From contig JAKSTR010000009.1 of assembly GCA_024402495.1 (NCBI GenBank), positions 1-48,862 on the forward strand: 48,862 nt of DNA, in the 5' to 3' direction. This stretch comes from Treponemataceae bacterium (lineage in GTDB: Bacteria; Spirochaetota; Spirochaetia; Treponematales; Treponemataceae). Numbering within the stretch: the first letter of the stretch is position 1; each line of letters starts with the position of its first letter. The notes under the pieces are model-generated. The model was given only the letters and a program-made list of their open reading frames with translations, did no database searches and was not told the DNA's origin. This document shows, one piece after another, positions 4,677-14,640 of the stretch. Both the position numbers and the translations under genes were made by a program.

Positions 4677-5942
4677 ATGGACAATAAACGACGGGTAGTA
4701 ATTACCGGATTGGGCTGCGTAAGCCCTGTTGGAAACACTGTAGACCAGACCTGGGAAAGTGTAAAAAACGGAAAATGCGGCGTTGGCAAGATTACCCTTT
4801 TTAATAGCGACCGGCTTTCGGTTAAAATTGCAGCTGAAGTAAAAGACTTTAATATTGAAGATTACGGTATTGCAAACCGCGATACCCGCAAAATGGCGCG
4901 TTTCAGCAAATTTGCCTTGGGTGCAAGCGCACAGGCTATTGCAGACGCAGGCTACACAAAAGAAACATTGAAAAACGAAAAAGTCGGCGTTATGGTTGGC
5001 TGCTGTATCGGCGGAATGGACGCCTGTTCTGCCGGTTTTGAAAAACTGTGCGACCCTGCCGCCGGTCCAAGCCGCATGCCGCCGTTAACAACCCCGCTGA
5101 TGATTAGTAACGAAGCCGCAGCAAACATCAATATTTATTACGGCTTAAACGGCTTTTCGTGGACAATAAATACAGCCTGCGCTTCTGGCACAGACGCGCT
5201 GGGTGTTGCACTGGATTTGGTACGCAGCGGCCGCTGTGATATGTGCCTTGCAGGCGGTACCGAAGCCGCAATTACCGAATTCGGCGTTTCTTCTTTTATA
5301 GTTTTGCAGGCTTTGGCAAGCCACTTTAACGATGCGCCGCAAAAAGCAAGCCGCCCGTTTGACAAAGACCGCGACGGTTTTATTCTGGGTGAAGGCGCTG
5401 CAATGCTGATGTTTGAAGAACTGGAACACGCAAAGGCACGCGGTGCAAAAATTTATGCAGAAGTTGCCGGTTTTGGTACAAGCTGCGATGCCTATCATAT
5501 TACTGCACCGTTAAAAGACGGCAGCGGCGCCGCTTTGGCAGTAAAACAGGCGCTTGCAGACGCAAACATGAAAGGCGAAGAAGTTGAATATTATAACGCC
5601 CACGGTACAAGTACCAAAGCAAACGACAGCGGCGAAACCGCAATGCTTAAGCTTGTTTTTGGCGACCATGCATACAAAATGAACGTAAGTTCAACCAAAA
5701 GCATGACAGGGCATCTGGTAGGTGCGGCAGGCGCAATTGAAGCAATTTTCTGCGTAAAGGCAATTAACAGCGGCTTTATTCCGCCTACAATCAACCTTGA
5801 AAACCCGGATATTGAAGCCGGCTGCGACTTGAACTATACGCCGAATACTGGCGTTGAACGCAAAATCAAAGTTGCCGCATCTGCTTCGCTTGGTTTTGGC
5901 GGTCATAACGCCTGTATTATTGTAAAAGAATACAAAGACTAG
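4677..5942 (+). CDS. fabF: 3-oxoacyl-ACP synthase II
   Basis: FabF condenses malonyl-ACP with acyl-ACP in the elongation step of type II fatty acid synthesis in the cytoplasm. The 421-residue protein is full length. It has the nucleophile Cys168 in NTACASGTDAL, the first histidine at 309 (YYNAHGTSTKAND), Lys341, and the second histidine at 346 (SMTGHLVGAAGAIEA), plus the glycine-rich C-terminal GFGGHNA. The start is fixed by a TAGGAG Shine-Dalgarno sequence five bases upstream of ATG. It appears to be a single-gene unit with its own promoter and a strong terminator, not part of a fab cluster, which is the only unusual point. Confidence 0.96.
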   Translation: MDNKRRVVITGLGCVSPVGNTVDQTWESVKNGKCGVGKITLFNSDRLSVKIAAEVKDFNIEDYGIANRDTRKMARFSKFALGASAQAIADAGYTKETLKNEKVGVMVGCCIGGMDACSAGFEKLCDPAAGPSRMPPLTTPLMISNEAAANINIYYGLNGFSWTINTACASGTDALGVALDLVRSGRCDMCLAGGTEAAITEFGVSSFIVLQALASHFNDAPQKASRPFDKDRDGFILGEGAAMLMFEELEHAKARGAKIYAEVAGFGTSCDAYHITAPLKDGSGAALAVKQALADANMKGEEVEYYNAHGTSTKANDSGETAMLKLVFGDHAYKMNVSSTKSMTGHLVGAAGAIEAIFCVKAINSGFIPPTINLENPDIEAGCDLNYTPNTGVERKIKVAASASLGFGGHNACIIVKEYKD

Positions 5943-6063: not shown

Positions 6064-6831
6064 CTATTCTTCGCTGTAAATTTTATTCATCTGGTCGGTG
6101 TACTGCCCCGGCGCGGAATATACGATAATATCGTCGTTGTATTTTAAAAAGCTTTTTGCGTCTTTTACGCTTTCAACTAAAAACATGGTAGGACTTTTGC
6201 CCAGAAACGGTTTTATGAAAGTTATATATTTCGGTTCAAGCTTGTGGCTTTTCAATGCAAAAATCACGTCCGCCATTCGGTCTGCCTTGTGAATAAGGTA
6301 CAGACTGCCGCCGTTTTTTAGCAGCGCCGCCGAAGTTTTTGCCACGTCGTCAATCGTACAGCAAACTTCCTGCCGGGCTATTAAAAGCTGCGGCGTTTTG
6401 TTTGCACTTGTGGGGCAGTTTTTCATGTACGGCGGGTTGCATACTACGGCATCGTAGCTGCATTTTTGCAGAAAATCTGGTGCTTTTTTCAGGTCTTCGT
6501 TAAAAAGGCTTATTTTATCTTCAATATTGTTAATTTTTACAGATTTTTCTGCAAGCTCAAAGGCTTCTTTTTGAATTTCAACAGCGTCAATATGCCCGTT
6601 TTGTAGTTTTCGGCTTAACAGAATTGAAATTATGCCGTTTCCGCTGCAAAGTTCGCAGATTTTATGGTTTCTTTTAATTCTGGCAAAGTTTGCAAGCAGA
6701 ATTGCATCTATGCCAAAGCAAAAATGCTTTTTGTTCTGCACGATTTTAAGCGGCTTTGCGTGCAATTCTTCTATTACTTCATCTGGTTCGCCACCGGCAG
6801 AAAAGTTTTGCGGTAAATTAGTCGCTGACAA
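6064..6831 (-). CDS. tRNA1(Val) adenine-N6-methyltransferase-like protein (TrmN6/YfiC type)
   Basis: The 255-residue protein is a Rossmann-fold SAM-dependent methyltransferase. The family pattern is visible: a basic KIVQNKKHFCFGIDAILLANFA segment (29-50), the SAM loop ELCSGNGIISI (60-70) and the catalytic NPPY (132-135), which marks N-methylation of adenine or glutamine. By analogy with E. coli YfiC it would modify A37 of a tRNA, but related enzymes act on other targets. The best start is a TTG at 6831 inside the end of the MATE gene, a 14-base overlap, so it is probably translationally coupled to that gene. No good ATG lies nearby. Confidence 0.8.
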   Translation of the reverse strand: MSATNLPQNFSAGGEPDEVIEELHAKPLKIVQNKKHFCFGIDAILLANFARIKRNHKICELCSGNGIISILLSRKLQNGHIDAVEIQKEAFELAEKSVKINNIEDKISLFNEDLKKAPDFLQKCSYDAVVCNPPYMKNCPTSANKTPQLLIARQEVCCTIDDVAKTSAALLKNGGSLYLIHKADRMADVIFALKSHKLEPKYITFIKPFLGKSPTMFLVESVKDAKSFLKYNDDIIVYSAPGQYTDQMNKIYSEE

Positions 6832-10214: not shown

Positions 10215-10958
10215 TTATTTTCTTTTTTCAAATTCAAAGTTATGCAGGAATTTTTTTGCACGTTCTGTCTGCGGATTTGTCCAGAACTGTTCCGGGTCAC
10301 CGGTTTCTACAATTTCGCCGCCGTCCATAAATACAATTTTATCTGCAACAGCGCGGGCAAACTGCATCTGGTGGGTAACTATAAGCATTGTTTTTCCGTC
10401 GTTTGCCAAATCCATCATCACATCAAGAACTTCGCGAACCATTTCCGGATCAAGGGCAGCAGTAACTTCGTCAAAAAGCATTACTTCCGGATGCATGCAA
10501 AGCATGCGCACAATTGCAACGCGCTGTTTTTGCCCGCCGGAAAGCTGACGCGGATAGGCGTTTGCTTTATCAGCCAGACCTACACGCTCAAGCCACATTT
10601 CAGCTTCTTTCTGGGCTTCTTCCATGTTGCGGTGCTGGGCGTGTTTGGGTCCAAGCAGAATATTTTTCATTACAGTAAGATGCGGAAAAAGATCGTAACT
10701 TTGAAAAACCATTCCGATTTTTTGCCGGATGAGGTGCATATCCTTTGTCCGGTTGGAAATTACTTCGCCGTCCAACAGAATTTCGCCGTCCTGAATGGGT
10801 TCCAGACCGTTTACGCATCGAAGCAAAGTAGATTTTCCGCAGCCGGAAGGACCAAGAATTACGATTACATCACCCTTTTCAACATTCAGTGAAATATCTT
10901 TCAGGATTACATTTTCATCAAAAGCTTTTTTTATATTTTTAATTTCTAAAAGTGACAT
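10215..10958 (-). CDS. Polar amino-acid ABC transporter ATPase
   Basis: This 247-residue protein is a complete GlnQ-type nucleotide-binding subunit. It has Walker A GPSGCGKSTLL, a Q-loop near MVFQSYDLFPHLTV, the signature LSGGQKQR, Walker B VMLFDEVTAALDPE and the switch histidine in THQMQFA. It powers uptake of an amino acid together with the two permeases just upstream and the binding protein at 8881-9705. A GGAG ribosome site precedes the ATG. The gap to the upstream permease is 43 bases, so the three genes form one unit. No clear terminator follows; the MITE-like repeat and a stem-loop lie downstream. Confidence 0.95.
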   Translation of the reverse strand: MSLLEIKNIKKAFDENVILKDISLNVEKGDVIVILGPSGCGKSTLLRCVNGLEPIQDGEILLDGEVISNRTKDMHLIRQKIGMVFQSYDLFPHLTVMKNILLGPKHAQHRNMEEAQKEAEMWLERVGLADKANAYPRQLSGGQKQRVAIVRMLCMHPEVMLFDEVTAALDPEMVREVLDVMMDLANDGKTMLIVTHQMQFARAVADKIVFMDGGEIVETGDPEQFWTNPQTERAKKFLHNFEFEKRK

Positions 10959-11001
10959 ATTTACTCCAAATTCTTATTTTCAATATTCAGCACAGAACGG
11001 C

Positions 11002-11703
11002 TTACATTTTCTGTTTTTTTTCTATAAACCGCGCGGCAAGGCTTAAAAACCAGCATACAAAAAAATACATCATAAAAATTACAAAATAAACCGCAATTGA
11101 AGCCGTTGGAATTGTAAGCCGGTTTGCTTCAATTATTTGCTGACCAATTTTTACAACTTCAATAACGCCTACAAAAACCACCAGCGATGTGGTTTTTATC
11201 ATTCTTGTAATCAAATTCATGCTTAGCGGAATAAGAGAACGGAAAGTTTGCGGAATGATAATAAACGTAAAAATCTGTTTTTCCGTAAGACCGATGGCGC
11301 GACCACTTTCGTACTGATGTTTCGGTACACTTTCCAGCGCACCGCGTACCAAATCGCCCATTTCGGCAGTGCCCCAAAGGGTAAAAACCAAAATACTTGC
11401 CGCTTCGCCGCTAAGCGAAATATTAAACATTCGAGTAAGCCCGTAATAAGCCACAAAAAGCAAAACCATCTGGGGCATAATGCGCATAATTTCAAGGTAA
11501 ATTTTACAAACAGCCTTAAGGATTTTGTTTTTTCGCGTCATGACAACACCAAACCCAAAACCAAAAATCATAGAAAGCGCCACAGAAACCAGCGCAATCC
11601 AGACTGTAACCCAAAGCCCGCCAAGCAGACGAAGCATATTTGTTCCCATTCCCAAAACACTGAAAGCCTGAGAAATTGCATTAAGAGTTTCCGAACTGTG
11701 CAT
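11002..11703 (-). CDS. Amino-acid ABC transporter permease (second subunit)
   Basis: The 233-residue protein is a HisM/GlnP-type inner-membrane permease with about five helices and the EAA loop that docks to the ATPase (ESGRAIGLTEKQIFTFIIIPQTFRSLIP). The start is placed at MHSSETLNAISQ because AGGAG lies eight bases upstream. An in-frame TTG seven codons earlier has no ribosome site. The gene overlaps the end of the first permease gene by 23 bases, implying coupled translation. Two unlike permeases imply a heterodimeric channel. Substrate unknown beyond polar amino acid. Confidence 0.92.
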   Translation of the reverse strand: MHSSETLNAISQAFSVLGMGTNMLRLLGGLWVTVWIALVSVALSMIFGFGFGVVMTRKNKILKAVCKIYLEIMRIMPQMVLLFVAYYGLTRMFNISLSGEAASILVFTLWGTAEMGDLVRGALESVPKHQYESGRAIGLTEKQIFTFIIIPQTFRSLIPLSMNLITRMIKTTSLVVFVGVIEVVKIGQQIIEANRLTIPTASIAVYFVIFMMYFFVCWFLSLAARFIEKKQKM

Positions 11704-12343
11704 AACGCAATCTCCTTTCTGCAAGTGCTGCCAAAACTGAAACCGGCAAGAGCAAAATTAAATATGAAATGCAAAGCAATGTAAGTGCTTCGTCAGTTTT
11801 ATAGTAAAGTCCAATTAAATCTTTTGCCACATACATTAAATCTGCAAGGGCAACGGCACTAAAAACCGAAGTTTCTTTAATCATGAACATAATGTTTGCA
11901 CAAAAACCGGGAACAGAAACCGAAATTGCCTGAGGAAGAATTACGTACTGGGTAATTTGCCGGCGGTTCAAGCCAATGCACAAAGCGCTTTCTATTTGAA
12001 CTTTTGAAACAGATTCAAGTGCAGAACGGAAAGTTTCTTCCATGTAGCTTCCGCTTAAAAAAGTTAAGCCAATTATTGCACACTGAACGGAAGAAAGTTT
12101 TATTCCCATGCGCGGAAATGCAAAGTAAAGAAAAAAAAGCTGAATAAGCAAAGGCGTGTTTCTTGAAAATTCAATATAAATACTTGTAAGCTGTTTTAAA
12201 ACAGGTATTTTAAAATACTGAATCAACGCACAGATTAAGCCCACCAAAAGAGACAGCAAAATGCCGACTAAAGCCAGTTTAAGCGTAAGCCCGGCTGCTT
12301 CTACATACATTGGAAGAACTTTTTGTATAAAACCAAAATCCAT
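11681..12343 (-). CDS. Amino-acid ABC transporter permease (first subunit)
   Basis: This 220-residue permease has the same family features as its neighbour: a helix-rich core with an EAA loop (ESALCIGLNRRQITQYVILPQAISVSVPG) and N-terminal LTLKLALVGILLSLLVG. It is the first gene of the permease-permease-ATPase unit. A TTGACT-N17-TAAAAT promoter lies about 40 bases upstream, giving a leader of about 30 bases. The Shine-Dalgarno match is weak (GGA). No operator like the one before the binding-protein gene is seen here, so the two units of this transporter may be controlled differently. Confidence 0.92.
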   Translation of the reverse strand: MDFGFIQKVLPMYVEAAGLTLKLALVGILLSLLVGLICALIQYFKIPVLKQLTSIYIEFSRNTPLLIQLFFLYFAFPRMGIKLSSVQCAIIGLTFLSGSYMEETFRSALESVSKVQIESALCIGLNRRQITQYVILPQAISVSVPGFCANIMFMIKETSVFSAVALADLMYVAKDLIGLYYKTDEALTLLCISYLILLLPVSVLAALAERRLRYAQFGNS

Positions 12344-12408: not shown

Positions 12409-12553
12409 TTAACCAGCCTTGTACCGCAAGCATTTGAAATTTTAATATTACATCCGGCGCAATTGATATTTGCATTTTGCATACGCTAAAAAAAATTTTT
12501 ACCACTTTTCCGGAAAAACCGGGAACAATAAAAAAAACTTTTGGTTTCACCTG

Positions 12554-12668
12554 CAGAACAATATTGGTTTGTGGTACAGAACAACGTTGTTCTGGGGGTG
12601 AGAACAACTATGGTTTAAGACCCAAACCAATATTGGTTTGAGGGTGAGAACATTTGTGTTTAAAAGTT
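12554..12668. repeat. Five tandem 23-bp units, each holding an 18-bp dyad
   Basis: Units begin at 12554, 12577, 12600, 12623 and 12646, exactly 23 bp apart. The consensus of the first 18 bases is CAGAACAATATTGGTTTG. Unit 2 (12577-12594) and unit 4 (12623-12640) are perfect 18-bp palindromes built from two different half-sites, and units 1, 3 and 5 are hybrids of these. The array lies between divergent promoters of the permease operon (-35 at 12403) and pgm (-35 near 12739). The phasing of about 2.2 helical turns and the dyads suggest cooperative protein binding. The rest of the 520-bp gap is AT-rich with no gene. Confidence 0.85.
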
Positions 12669-12864: not shown

Positions 12865-14640
12865 ATGGACAAAGCTGAAATTATTGAACGTGCAAAAGCA
12901 TATATTGCTGAAGAAAAAGACGAAAACTTTCGCAAAGAAGTAGAAGCCTTGATTGCTTCTCCTGATGCAAACCTTGCAGAACTTGAAGACCGTTTTTACC
13001 GTGCCCTTGAATTTGGTACAGGTGGTTTGCGTGGCGTAATTGGCGGCGGTACAAACCGCATGAATACTTACGTTATCAACAATGCAACTCAGGGTTTGGC
13101 AAACTATTTTATCAAAACTTTCCCGGAAAAAGCTGCAAAAGGCGAACTTTCGGCTGTAGTTGCATACGATTCGCGCAAATATTCTGACGTTTTTGCAGAA
13201 GCTACCGCTTTGATTTTTGCTGCAAACGGTTTCAAGACATATCTTTTTACAGGCTTGCGCCCTACCCCGGAACTTTCCTATGCAATCCGCAAGCTTGGCT
13301 GCGACACCGGCGTTGTAGTAACCGCTTCGCACAACCCGCCGCAGTACAACGGCTACAAGGCTTACTGGAATGACGGCGCACAGGTTATTGAACCGCACGA
13401 CAAAGGAATTATTGACGAAGTTAACGCCGTTTCCAGCGTTAAAACAATCAGCAAAGATGAAGCAATTAAAAACGGCAAGCTTGTTTTGATTGATAAAGAA
13501 ATTGATGAACCTTACTGGGCAATGGTAAAATCTCAGCTTTTCCGCCCGGAACTGTTCAGCAAAATGGCAAAAGACGTAAAAATCGTTTACACTCCTTTGC
13601 ACGGTACAGGCGCAATGCACGTAGAAAAAGTGCTTGGCGATCTGGGTCTTGCAGTTACAACTGTTCCGGAACAGCGTGAACCAGACGGAACATTCCGCAC
13701 CGTAGAAAAACCTAATCCGGAAGAAGCACCGGCACTTAAAATGGCTGTTGAACTTGCACAGAAAGAAAAAGCTGATGTTGTTATGGCAACAGACCCTGAT
13801 GCAGACCGTTTCGGCAGCGCAGTTCCTGGAAAAGACGGCAAATTTGTTTTGATTAACGGAAACCAGATGGGTGTTCTTTTGACCGATTACATTCTGCTTT
13901 CGCGCAAAGAACTGGGAAAAATGCCTGCAGCCCCTGCAATGATTCGTTCTATTGTAACTGCCCCAATGGTAGATAAAATTGCGGCAAAAAACGGCGTAAA
14001 ATTAGTTGAATGCCTGACAGGATTTAAATGGATTGCCAACGATATGGCAACTTTTGAAAAAACCGGCAGCAACCAGTACGTTTTCGGTTTTGAAGAAAGC
14101 TACGGTTACAACGTTGAAACAGACGTTCGCGACAAGGACGGCGTAAGTGCTGCCGCAATGTGTGCCGAAATGACACTTTACTGGCGCAGTCAGGGCAAAT
14201 CTTTGCTGGAACGCCTTGAAGAATTGTACAACGAATACGGTTACTACGAAGACTGCGCAATTTCCAAAAACTTTGCCGGCGCTTCTGGTGCAGAAACAAT
14301 GAAAAACATTATGGCAAAACTTCGCGCCGACGGATTCAAGTCTCTTGGCGGCAAAAAAGTTATCTGCATCCGCGATGTTCAGCAGAGCATCGTATTCAAT
14401 CCTGCAAATCCGGCAGACAAAAAACCTTTGGCATTGCCAAAAAGCAACGTTTTGCAGTTCTTCCTTGAAGGCGGTACAGTTGTAAGCGCCCGTCCAAGCG
14501 GAACAGAACCTAAAATTAAGTTCTACATTAACGCACAGGTTCCAAGCAACGATGGTCTTGCAAAAGCAAAAGAAGCAGCTGCAAGTCTTTGCGACGCAAT
14601 CAAAACAGAAATTAACGCTGTTTTGGACGCTGCAAAATAA
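12865..14640 (+). CDS. Phosphoglucomutase/phosphomannomutase (alpha-D-phosphohexomutase)
   Basis: This 591-residue enzyme interconverts hexose 1- and 6-phosphates, linking glycolysis with sugar-nucleotide and polysaccharide synthesis. The four family motifs are present: the phosphoserine loop TASHNPPQYNGYK, the Mg-binding DPDADRFG, the sugar-binding FGFEESYGY and the phosphate-binding SARPSGTEPKIKFYI. Its length and the N-terminal GTGGLRGVIGGGTNRMN place it with the long PgcA/Pgm2-like group. The ATG at 12865 has GAGGAG six bases upstream, so an earlier in-frame TTG (12844) is rejected. The exonuclease gene follows five bases after its stop. Confidence 0.95.
   Translation: MDKAEIIERAKAYIAEEKDENFRKEVEALIASPDANLAELEDRFYRALEFGTGGLRGVIGGGTNRMNTYVINNATQGLANYFIKTFPEKAAKGELSAVVAYDSRKYSDVFAEATALIFAANGFKTYLFTGLRPTPELSYAIRKLGCDTGVVVTASHNPPQYNGYKAYWNDGAQVIEPHDKGIIDEVNAVSSVKTISKDEAIKNGKLVLIDKEIDEPYWAMVKSQLFRPELFSKMAKDVKIVYTPLHGTGAMHVEKVLGDLGLAVTTVPEQREPDGTFRTVEKPNPEEAPALKMAVELAQKEKADVVMATDPDADRFGSAVPGKDGKFVLINGNQMGVLLTDYILLSRKELGKMPAAPAMIRSIVTAPMVDKIAAKNGVKLVECLTGFKWIANDMATFEKTGSNQYVFGFEESYGYNVETDVRDKDGVSAAAMCAEMTLYWRSQGKSLLERLEELYNEYGYYEDCAISKNFAGASGAETMKNIMAKLRADGFKSLGGKKVICIRDVQQSIVFNPANPADKKPLALPKSNVLQFFLEGGTVVSARPSGTEPKIKFYINAQVPSNDGLAKAKEAAASLCDAIKTEINAVLDAAK

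Follow-up and report, generated by a model that had tools for sequence, protein, structure and literature searches.

A tandem array of five 23-bp palindromic units in the 48,862-nucleotide stretch of DNA analyzed here (the window) belongs, by its architecture and half-site motif, to a class of arrays tied to genes for proteins that join an HU-type domain to a DUF4469 domain (HU-DUF4469). The most fitting reading of the window array is an orphan copy that acts in trans. With a probability of about 0.6, we consider it a dispersed member of a set of 23-bp palindromic arrays that would serve as binding platforms for HU-DUF4469 proteins. To our knowledge, DUF4469 proteins have no known function, and the arrays offer a defined target against which each can be tested.

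The array spans positions 12554 to 12668, and its units start exactly 23 bp apart (Table 1), as a sequence-only reading had reported. That reading also described units 2 and 4 as perfect 18-bp palindromes made from two different half-sites, which the arm counts bear out. Its further statement that each unit contains an 18-bp dyad suits units 2 and 4 and is loose for units 3 and 5. The degenerate sixth unit it suspected (unit 0) keeps one arm, matches the half-site pattern at 12533 with 3 mismatches, and occupies the position of the degenerate first dyad of related arrays. Because the units differ, default tandem-repeat finding misses the array. In a scan whose score depends solely on four dyads being evenly spaced, with no requirement that units resemble one another, the window array obtained 26/32 at period 23. 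No run attained 26 in 829 kb of shuffled sequence from its own genome, and none attained 25 in ~2.0 Mb shuffled from six congeners; relative to both, the array is palindromic beyond chance at a 23-bp period. Dyads take up 16–18 of each 23 bp and leave a gap of ~5 bp, where a CRISPR array would require a unique spacer of ~20 bp or more; a CRISPR array was ruled out.

Table 1. Units of the palindromic array and flanking features, in window coordinates
Feature	Position	Strand	Description
Unit 0	12531..12553		Degenerate AAAAACTTTTGGTTTC; single arm (TTTTGGTTTC) retained; in array register
Unit 1	12554..12576		Hybrid dyad CAGAACAATATTGGTTTG; 6/8 arm pairs
Unit 2	12577..12599		Perfect 18-bp palindrome CAGAACAACGTTGTTCTG; 8/8 arm pairs
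Unit 3	12600..12622		Imperfect dyad GAGAACAACTATGGTTTA; 1 mismatch to ARAMCAANNTTGKTYT; <6/8 arm pairs
Unit 4	12623..12645		Perfect 18-bp palindrome CAAACCAATATTGGTTTG; 8/8 arm pairs
Unit 5	12646..12668		Weak dyad GAGAACATTTGTGTTTA; 3 mismatches to two-dyad pattern; <6/8 arm pairs
Amino-acid ABC transporter permease gene	11681..12343	-	First gene of divergent operon; start 12343
Permease -35/-10-like boxes	12408-12380	-	TTGACT/TAAAAT; ~145 bp from array
Phosphoglucomutase-type gene (pgm)	12865..14640	+	Start codon about 195 bp past array

A pattern of two dyads at 23 bp, derived from the window half-sites, matched seven loci in the same genome (G000): the window and contigs C18, C51, C53, C127, C145 and C166. 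The reversed control pattern matched none there. The six other arrays (that of C166 is cut by the contig end) have the dyad GAAACAAYRTTGTTTC in common across four units, begin with a degenerate dyad that closely recalls window unit 0, and are flanked by mutually unrelated genes. One of them, on C145, lies 335 bp from an HU-DUF4469 gene. This genome encodes three HU-DUF4469 proteins, on contigs C145, C154 and C124, and none is encoded on the 48.9-kb window contig. Window units and the C145-linked family have the motif ARAMCAAY in common, and their consensus sequences are moderately alike, with 0.61 identity against a background of 0.47 ± 0.08, a value that 6% of unrelated array pairs also reach; blastn at E ≤ 1 does not join the window array to the HU-linked array of the genome. 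The candidate cognate protein of the window array would be that of C145, or else that of C154 or C124.

A period-free scan covering 2.03 Mb from six congeners found period 23 four times, 41–42 four times and 44 once, and nothing in the corresponding shuffles. Congener arrays use another dyad (AATCTAGCTAGATT). The dyad AATCTARYTAGATT is repeated with a 23-bp period in five congeners but is absent from G000. Other repeats were seen alongside. In G000 the dispersed repeat GTCATTCCGAACTCGTTTCGGAATC occurs at more than 20 places, often beside 23-bp arrays (for instance right of the array at L077, and at L141 10714–10820). The same genome holds 41–42 bp palindromic tandem arrays at L140 (~5600–5800), L141 (~10837–11200), L139 (~4310) and L164 (~6422–6590); in that of L141 the arms shift jointly from TTTCTACA..TGTAGAAA to TTCCGCA..TGCGGAA and the palindrome is kept. 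In G004:C47 (L195 18738–18923), a 22-bp palindromic array (GAAACGAATCGTTTC), possibly a period-22 variant, lies ~1.5 kb upstream of an HU-DUF4469 gene.

The association with HU-DUF4469 genes was seen in three independent settings: G000:C145, G005:C28 (with its counterpart G007:C95) and G019:C203. The reverse test began from HU-DUF4469 genes and looked for arrays in their flanks. Within the genus, 14 of 30 loci had an array, 13 of these at exactly 23 bp. A family-wide Treponemataceae set of 28 HU-DUF4469 genes, not selected for arrays, gave 19 with an array, all at period 23; 18 of the 19 lie 3' of the gene, with start points mostly from -9 to +28 bp relative to the stop codon. At the same threshold, public plasmid and phage records had arrays at 8/10 HU-DUF4469 genes, including all six from Parabacteroides distasonis, plus a weak one at pTS1. 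(The P. distasonis "plasmids", NZ_OY725757.1 and sister records, carry gltX, priA and other such genes and resemble mislabelled chromosomal contigs.) Further Bacteroidota and Treponema genomes, which were picked for carrying an array, had one at 17/20 HU-DUF4469 genes, with periods of 23 (12 arrays), 24 (four) and 22 (one). Bulk congener DNA contained about six intergenic period-23 arrays in 1.96 Mb. Fisher tests against this bulk gave p = 5e-25 with the 28 family-wide loci and 4e-33 when every Treponemataceae locus was counted; these values overstate independence, not direction, because the sets include orthologues (e.g. L296/L299/L300 and L306/L307/L309). About one third of HU-DUF4469 loci had no array within the flanks examined. 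The 23-bp arrays are thus strongly tied to this gene family. Since they usually adjoin HU-DUF4469 genes and each gene lineage has its own array sequence, they are very probably the targets of these proteins.

Nearly every HU-DUF4469 gene lineage has a dyad sequence of its own. Arrays of different HU genes resemble one another only at background level (0.47 ± 0.06), close relatives excepted, and genes whose tails are at least 96% identical have arrays that are 96–100% identical. In one genome, the L276 and L280 proteins agree at 204 of their first 209 residues and differ in the last ~30, and their arrays are unrelated. At the DNA level the two loci are 90–98% identical over ~600 nt, 65–70% over the last ~120 nt of the gene and 23–40% across the array. 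L266 is a third gene with the same break; at least one pair, L313/L314, does not fit a joint change of tail and array. Family-wide, array similarity correlates weakly with that of protein segments. Close relatives alone are informative, and among them rho is 0.30 for the body and 0.39 for the tail, from pairs that are non-independent. Independent cases are few, and their simplest reading is that specificity is set by the final ~30 residues of the Ig-like domain, with tail and adjoining array changing together.

The partner proteins combine an HU-type domain (PF14848, with profile matches up to 1.9e-43) and a C-terminal Ig-like DUF4469 domain (PF14734). A family profile built from 23 members and searched against the PDB matched the solved structure 4fmr at 1.8e-33 and, more weakly, HU (1.9e-7), TF1 (1e-4) and IHF (1.8e-4). 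PF14734 was found in 127/269 Treponemataceae genomes, with up to 17 per genome among the matches listed, and in 0/14 control genomes. PF18291, whose cut-off is 26.2 bits, scored 27.9 bits in L286 and below cut-off in L248, L290 and L323; the other proteins were unmatched. PADLOC returned no anti-phage defence match for six HU proteins. Neighbouring genes encode BspA-type LRR, FGE-sulfatase-type, InlB-repeat and fimbrillin proteins, type I restriction proteins and integrases, one kind of which is an integron integrase. At L248 8055–10560 (G005) and L250 8105–10578 (G007), a 23-bp array and an HU-DUF4469 gene are followed by the integron integrase (TIGR02249, E 9e-126), next to tpiA. Type I restriction genes adjoin an HU-DUF4469 gene and array at G000:C145 (L167 7040–8566 and 9299–10072) and on T. 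saccharophilum pTS1 (L286 80–8765). We found no published description of such arrays in the literature accessible to us, in which a single paper, on T. denticola TDE_2259, was found to name both domains.

A three-dyad pattern, which imposes the 23-bp period on its matches, also found arrays in termite-gut Treponema, Tannerellaceae, Mediterranea, Bacteroides, Prevotella, Oligosphaera, Holdemania and two viral records. In viral contigs, control patterns (reversed arms, 22-bp period) gave no matches versus two, numbers too few to weigh, and no viral relatives were found in the scan. The array-bearing Oligosphaera, Prevotella ihumii and Holdemania genomes and the two viral records contained no DUF4469 match, and in five other genomes no match was seen between the orphan arrays and the HU-linked ones retrieved from the same genome. 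A conventional regulator encoded beside the Bacteroidota, Holdemania and Treponema arrays was considered and rejected: the flanking proteins (ClpB, VanZ, SPOR, DUF4143, HTH-cupin) are mutually unrelated. Some Bacteroides arrays have period 24 and one has period 22. In Bacteroides sp. BRZ, 24-bp arrays stand beside HU-DUF4469 genes at L325, L329, L335 and L342, three of them just 5'. Arrays range from roughly 3 to 39 units; the longest seen, ~39 units of 23 bp, is beside an HU-DUF4469 gene of Treponema sp. Nc350 (L333, G277:C1).

The genes on either side of the window array are those the sequence-only reading named, an amino-acid ABC permease and a phosphoglucomutase. At the distances given in Table 1, the array overlaps neither core promoter. 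Among eight species of the genus, the intergenic region had a BLAST match only in its own genome. Three congeners have a close match to the permease gene and all seven have pgm. The two genes do not adjoin there, and no array of the window sequence lies upstream of either. In G004, one of the 23-bp arrays from the period-free scan, with a different dyad, AATCTARYTAGATT, is found ~365 bp upstream of pgm; other copies of that array adjoin unrelated genes. Conserved pgm or permease regulation was ruled out by this congener comparison. The earlier idea of a cooperative array for an architectural-type protein is well supported at the level of the class, for which HU-DUF4469 can now be named. Nothing found here supports a local part for the array in controlling pgm or the permease.

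An operator that serves a conventional transcription factor in controlling the divergent permease operon and pgm is an unlikely explanation. The site does lie between divergent promoters, and 23-bp-phased dyads resemble multi-operator regions; against this stand an arrangement that congeners do not keep, arrays of related dyads at unrelated loci of the same genome, and promoter cores that the array leaves clear. Also improbable is a neutral tandem repeat, produced by slippage with hairpin-templated correction of the arms and no protein. It would account for the varying copy number and sequence of the arrays, for relatives that lack an array at the same locus, and for the 41–42 bp palindromic arrays of this genome, but it predicts neither that a 23-bp period should be common to Spirochaetota and Bacteroidota nor that the arrays should be strongly linked to a single gene family. 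The sequence-only reading had associated absence from this locus in close relatives with neutrality. The array is indeed absent there, yet neutrality does not follow, given the tie between this class of arrays and a single protein family.

We regard it as very unlikely that the arrays are parts of mobile elements, such as transposon-end or integrase sites or MITE-like repeats, with the HU protein as a recombination accessory factor. Dispersed copies with common flanks would suit such an origin, as would the integron integrase after the HU gene in G005 and G007, a site-specific integrase before one Parabacteroides HU gene and an IS110 transposase after another HU gene. Most HU-array loci nevertheless have no recombinase in the flanks examined, no target-site duplication was established, and orphan copies differ from genome to genome. 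The chance appears slimmer still that the arrays act as RNA, forming chains of small hairpins in HU-gene 3' UTRs that affect stability or termination or capture the HU protein. Many arrays do begin on the transcribed side, within a few bp of the stop codon, and the window array can be folded on paper into a terminator-like hairpin. If RNA hairpins were under selection, G-U pairs should be favoured, but on the HU-gene coding strand dyad mismatches in 3' arrays were G-T in 26 cases versus A-C in 23, and in 5' arrays 4 versus 6. With no G-U bias, the constraint and the dyad symmetry are most simply ascribed to DNA, as would suit a protein that binds as a dimer. Several dyads are, moreover, palindromes without a loop, and many arrays are found on the 5' side of the gene or, as in the window, between divergent promoters.

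In the favoured account, HU-DUF4469 binding, one protein dimer would most likely occupy each dyad, and the fixed 23-bp step (~2.2 helical turns) would let adjacent dimers pack and bend or wrap DNA, presumably in a cooperative manner. Each protein lineage would read its own dyad, most likely through the variable basic C-terminal segment. As the HU-DUF4469 gene is usually next to its own array, binding there may bring about autoregulation or form a boundary at that gene. Extra copies, the window array among them, would be trans targets and might work as upstream architectural or regulatory elements; any transcriptional effect of the arrays, including one on pgm or the permease, is conjectural. 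A broader proposal, to which we give even odds, is that HU-DUF4469 proteins form a large, fast-diversifying, sequence-specific HU-fold family of Spirochaetota and Bacteroidota, in which each paralogue has its own array, a swapped cassette of the array and the ~30 codons before it alters specificity, and dispersed arrays are trans targets. If true, the proteins and arrays would together amount to a naturally re-programmable protein-DNA array system. Confirmed binding would make these proteins a branch of the HU superfamily that is sequence-specific and whose preferences are readable from the genome, and the natural specificity swaps could serve to work out a recognition code. The proteins and their arrays may also explain control or exchange of the neighbouring surface-protein genes (BspA LRR, FGE-sulfatase type, InlB-repeat and fimbrillin).

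Several known systems bear comparison. T. denticola TDE_2259, encoded beside lrrA (TDE_2258), has the HU-DUF4469 domain architecture (PF14848 plus PF14734) and, as at G001:C28 and pTS2, a BspA-type neighbour; it differs in being described, in the parts of the account available to us, as an HU-like protein assumed to bind without specificity, and those parts mention no repeat array (PMC12724145). With the HU/IHF superfamily (HU, IHF and phage SPO1 TF1), HU-DUF4469 proteins have the N-terminal HU-type domain in common by profile; they differ in their extra Ig-like domain and in the palindromic array particular to each lineage. HU-type dimers bend DNA, and HU is largely non-specific, whereas IHF has one consensus. 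Burroughs and colleagues reportedly delineated HU-HIG proteins (PF18291) in their analysis of the HU superfamily. In these, which are expanded in Bacteroidota, the HU domain is fused to an Ig-like domain. The fusion architecture is alike, but HU-DUF4469 proteins mostly match PF14848 plus PF14734, with PF18291 mostly below cut-off. Lambda-type repressors bind as cooperative dimers to operator dyads placed 23–24 bp centre to centre, a spacing similar to that of the 23-bp arrays; the protein fold is different, HU-DUF4469 arrays comprise ~3–39 units, and the window array overlaps no promoter. ParB-parS, SopB-sopC (43-bp repeats) and MatP-matS each have a protein that binds palindromic DNA sites, arranged in tandem or dispersed and often beside its gene, and HU-DUF4469 arrays are like them in this respect. 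Unlike partition systems, the HU-DUF4469 loci of public records have no ParA/ATPase partner among their annotated neighbours. A further difference from all three systems is that a genome encodes many HU-DUF4469 paralogues, and each of these has an array to itself.
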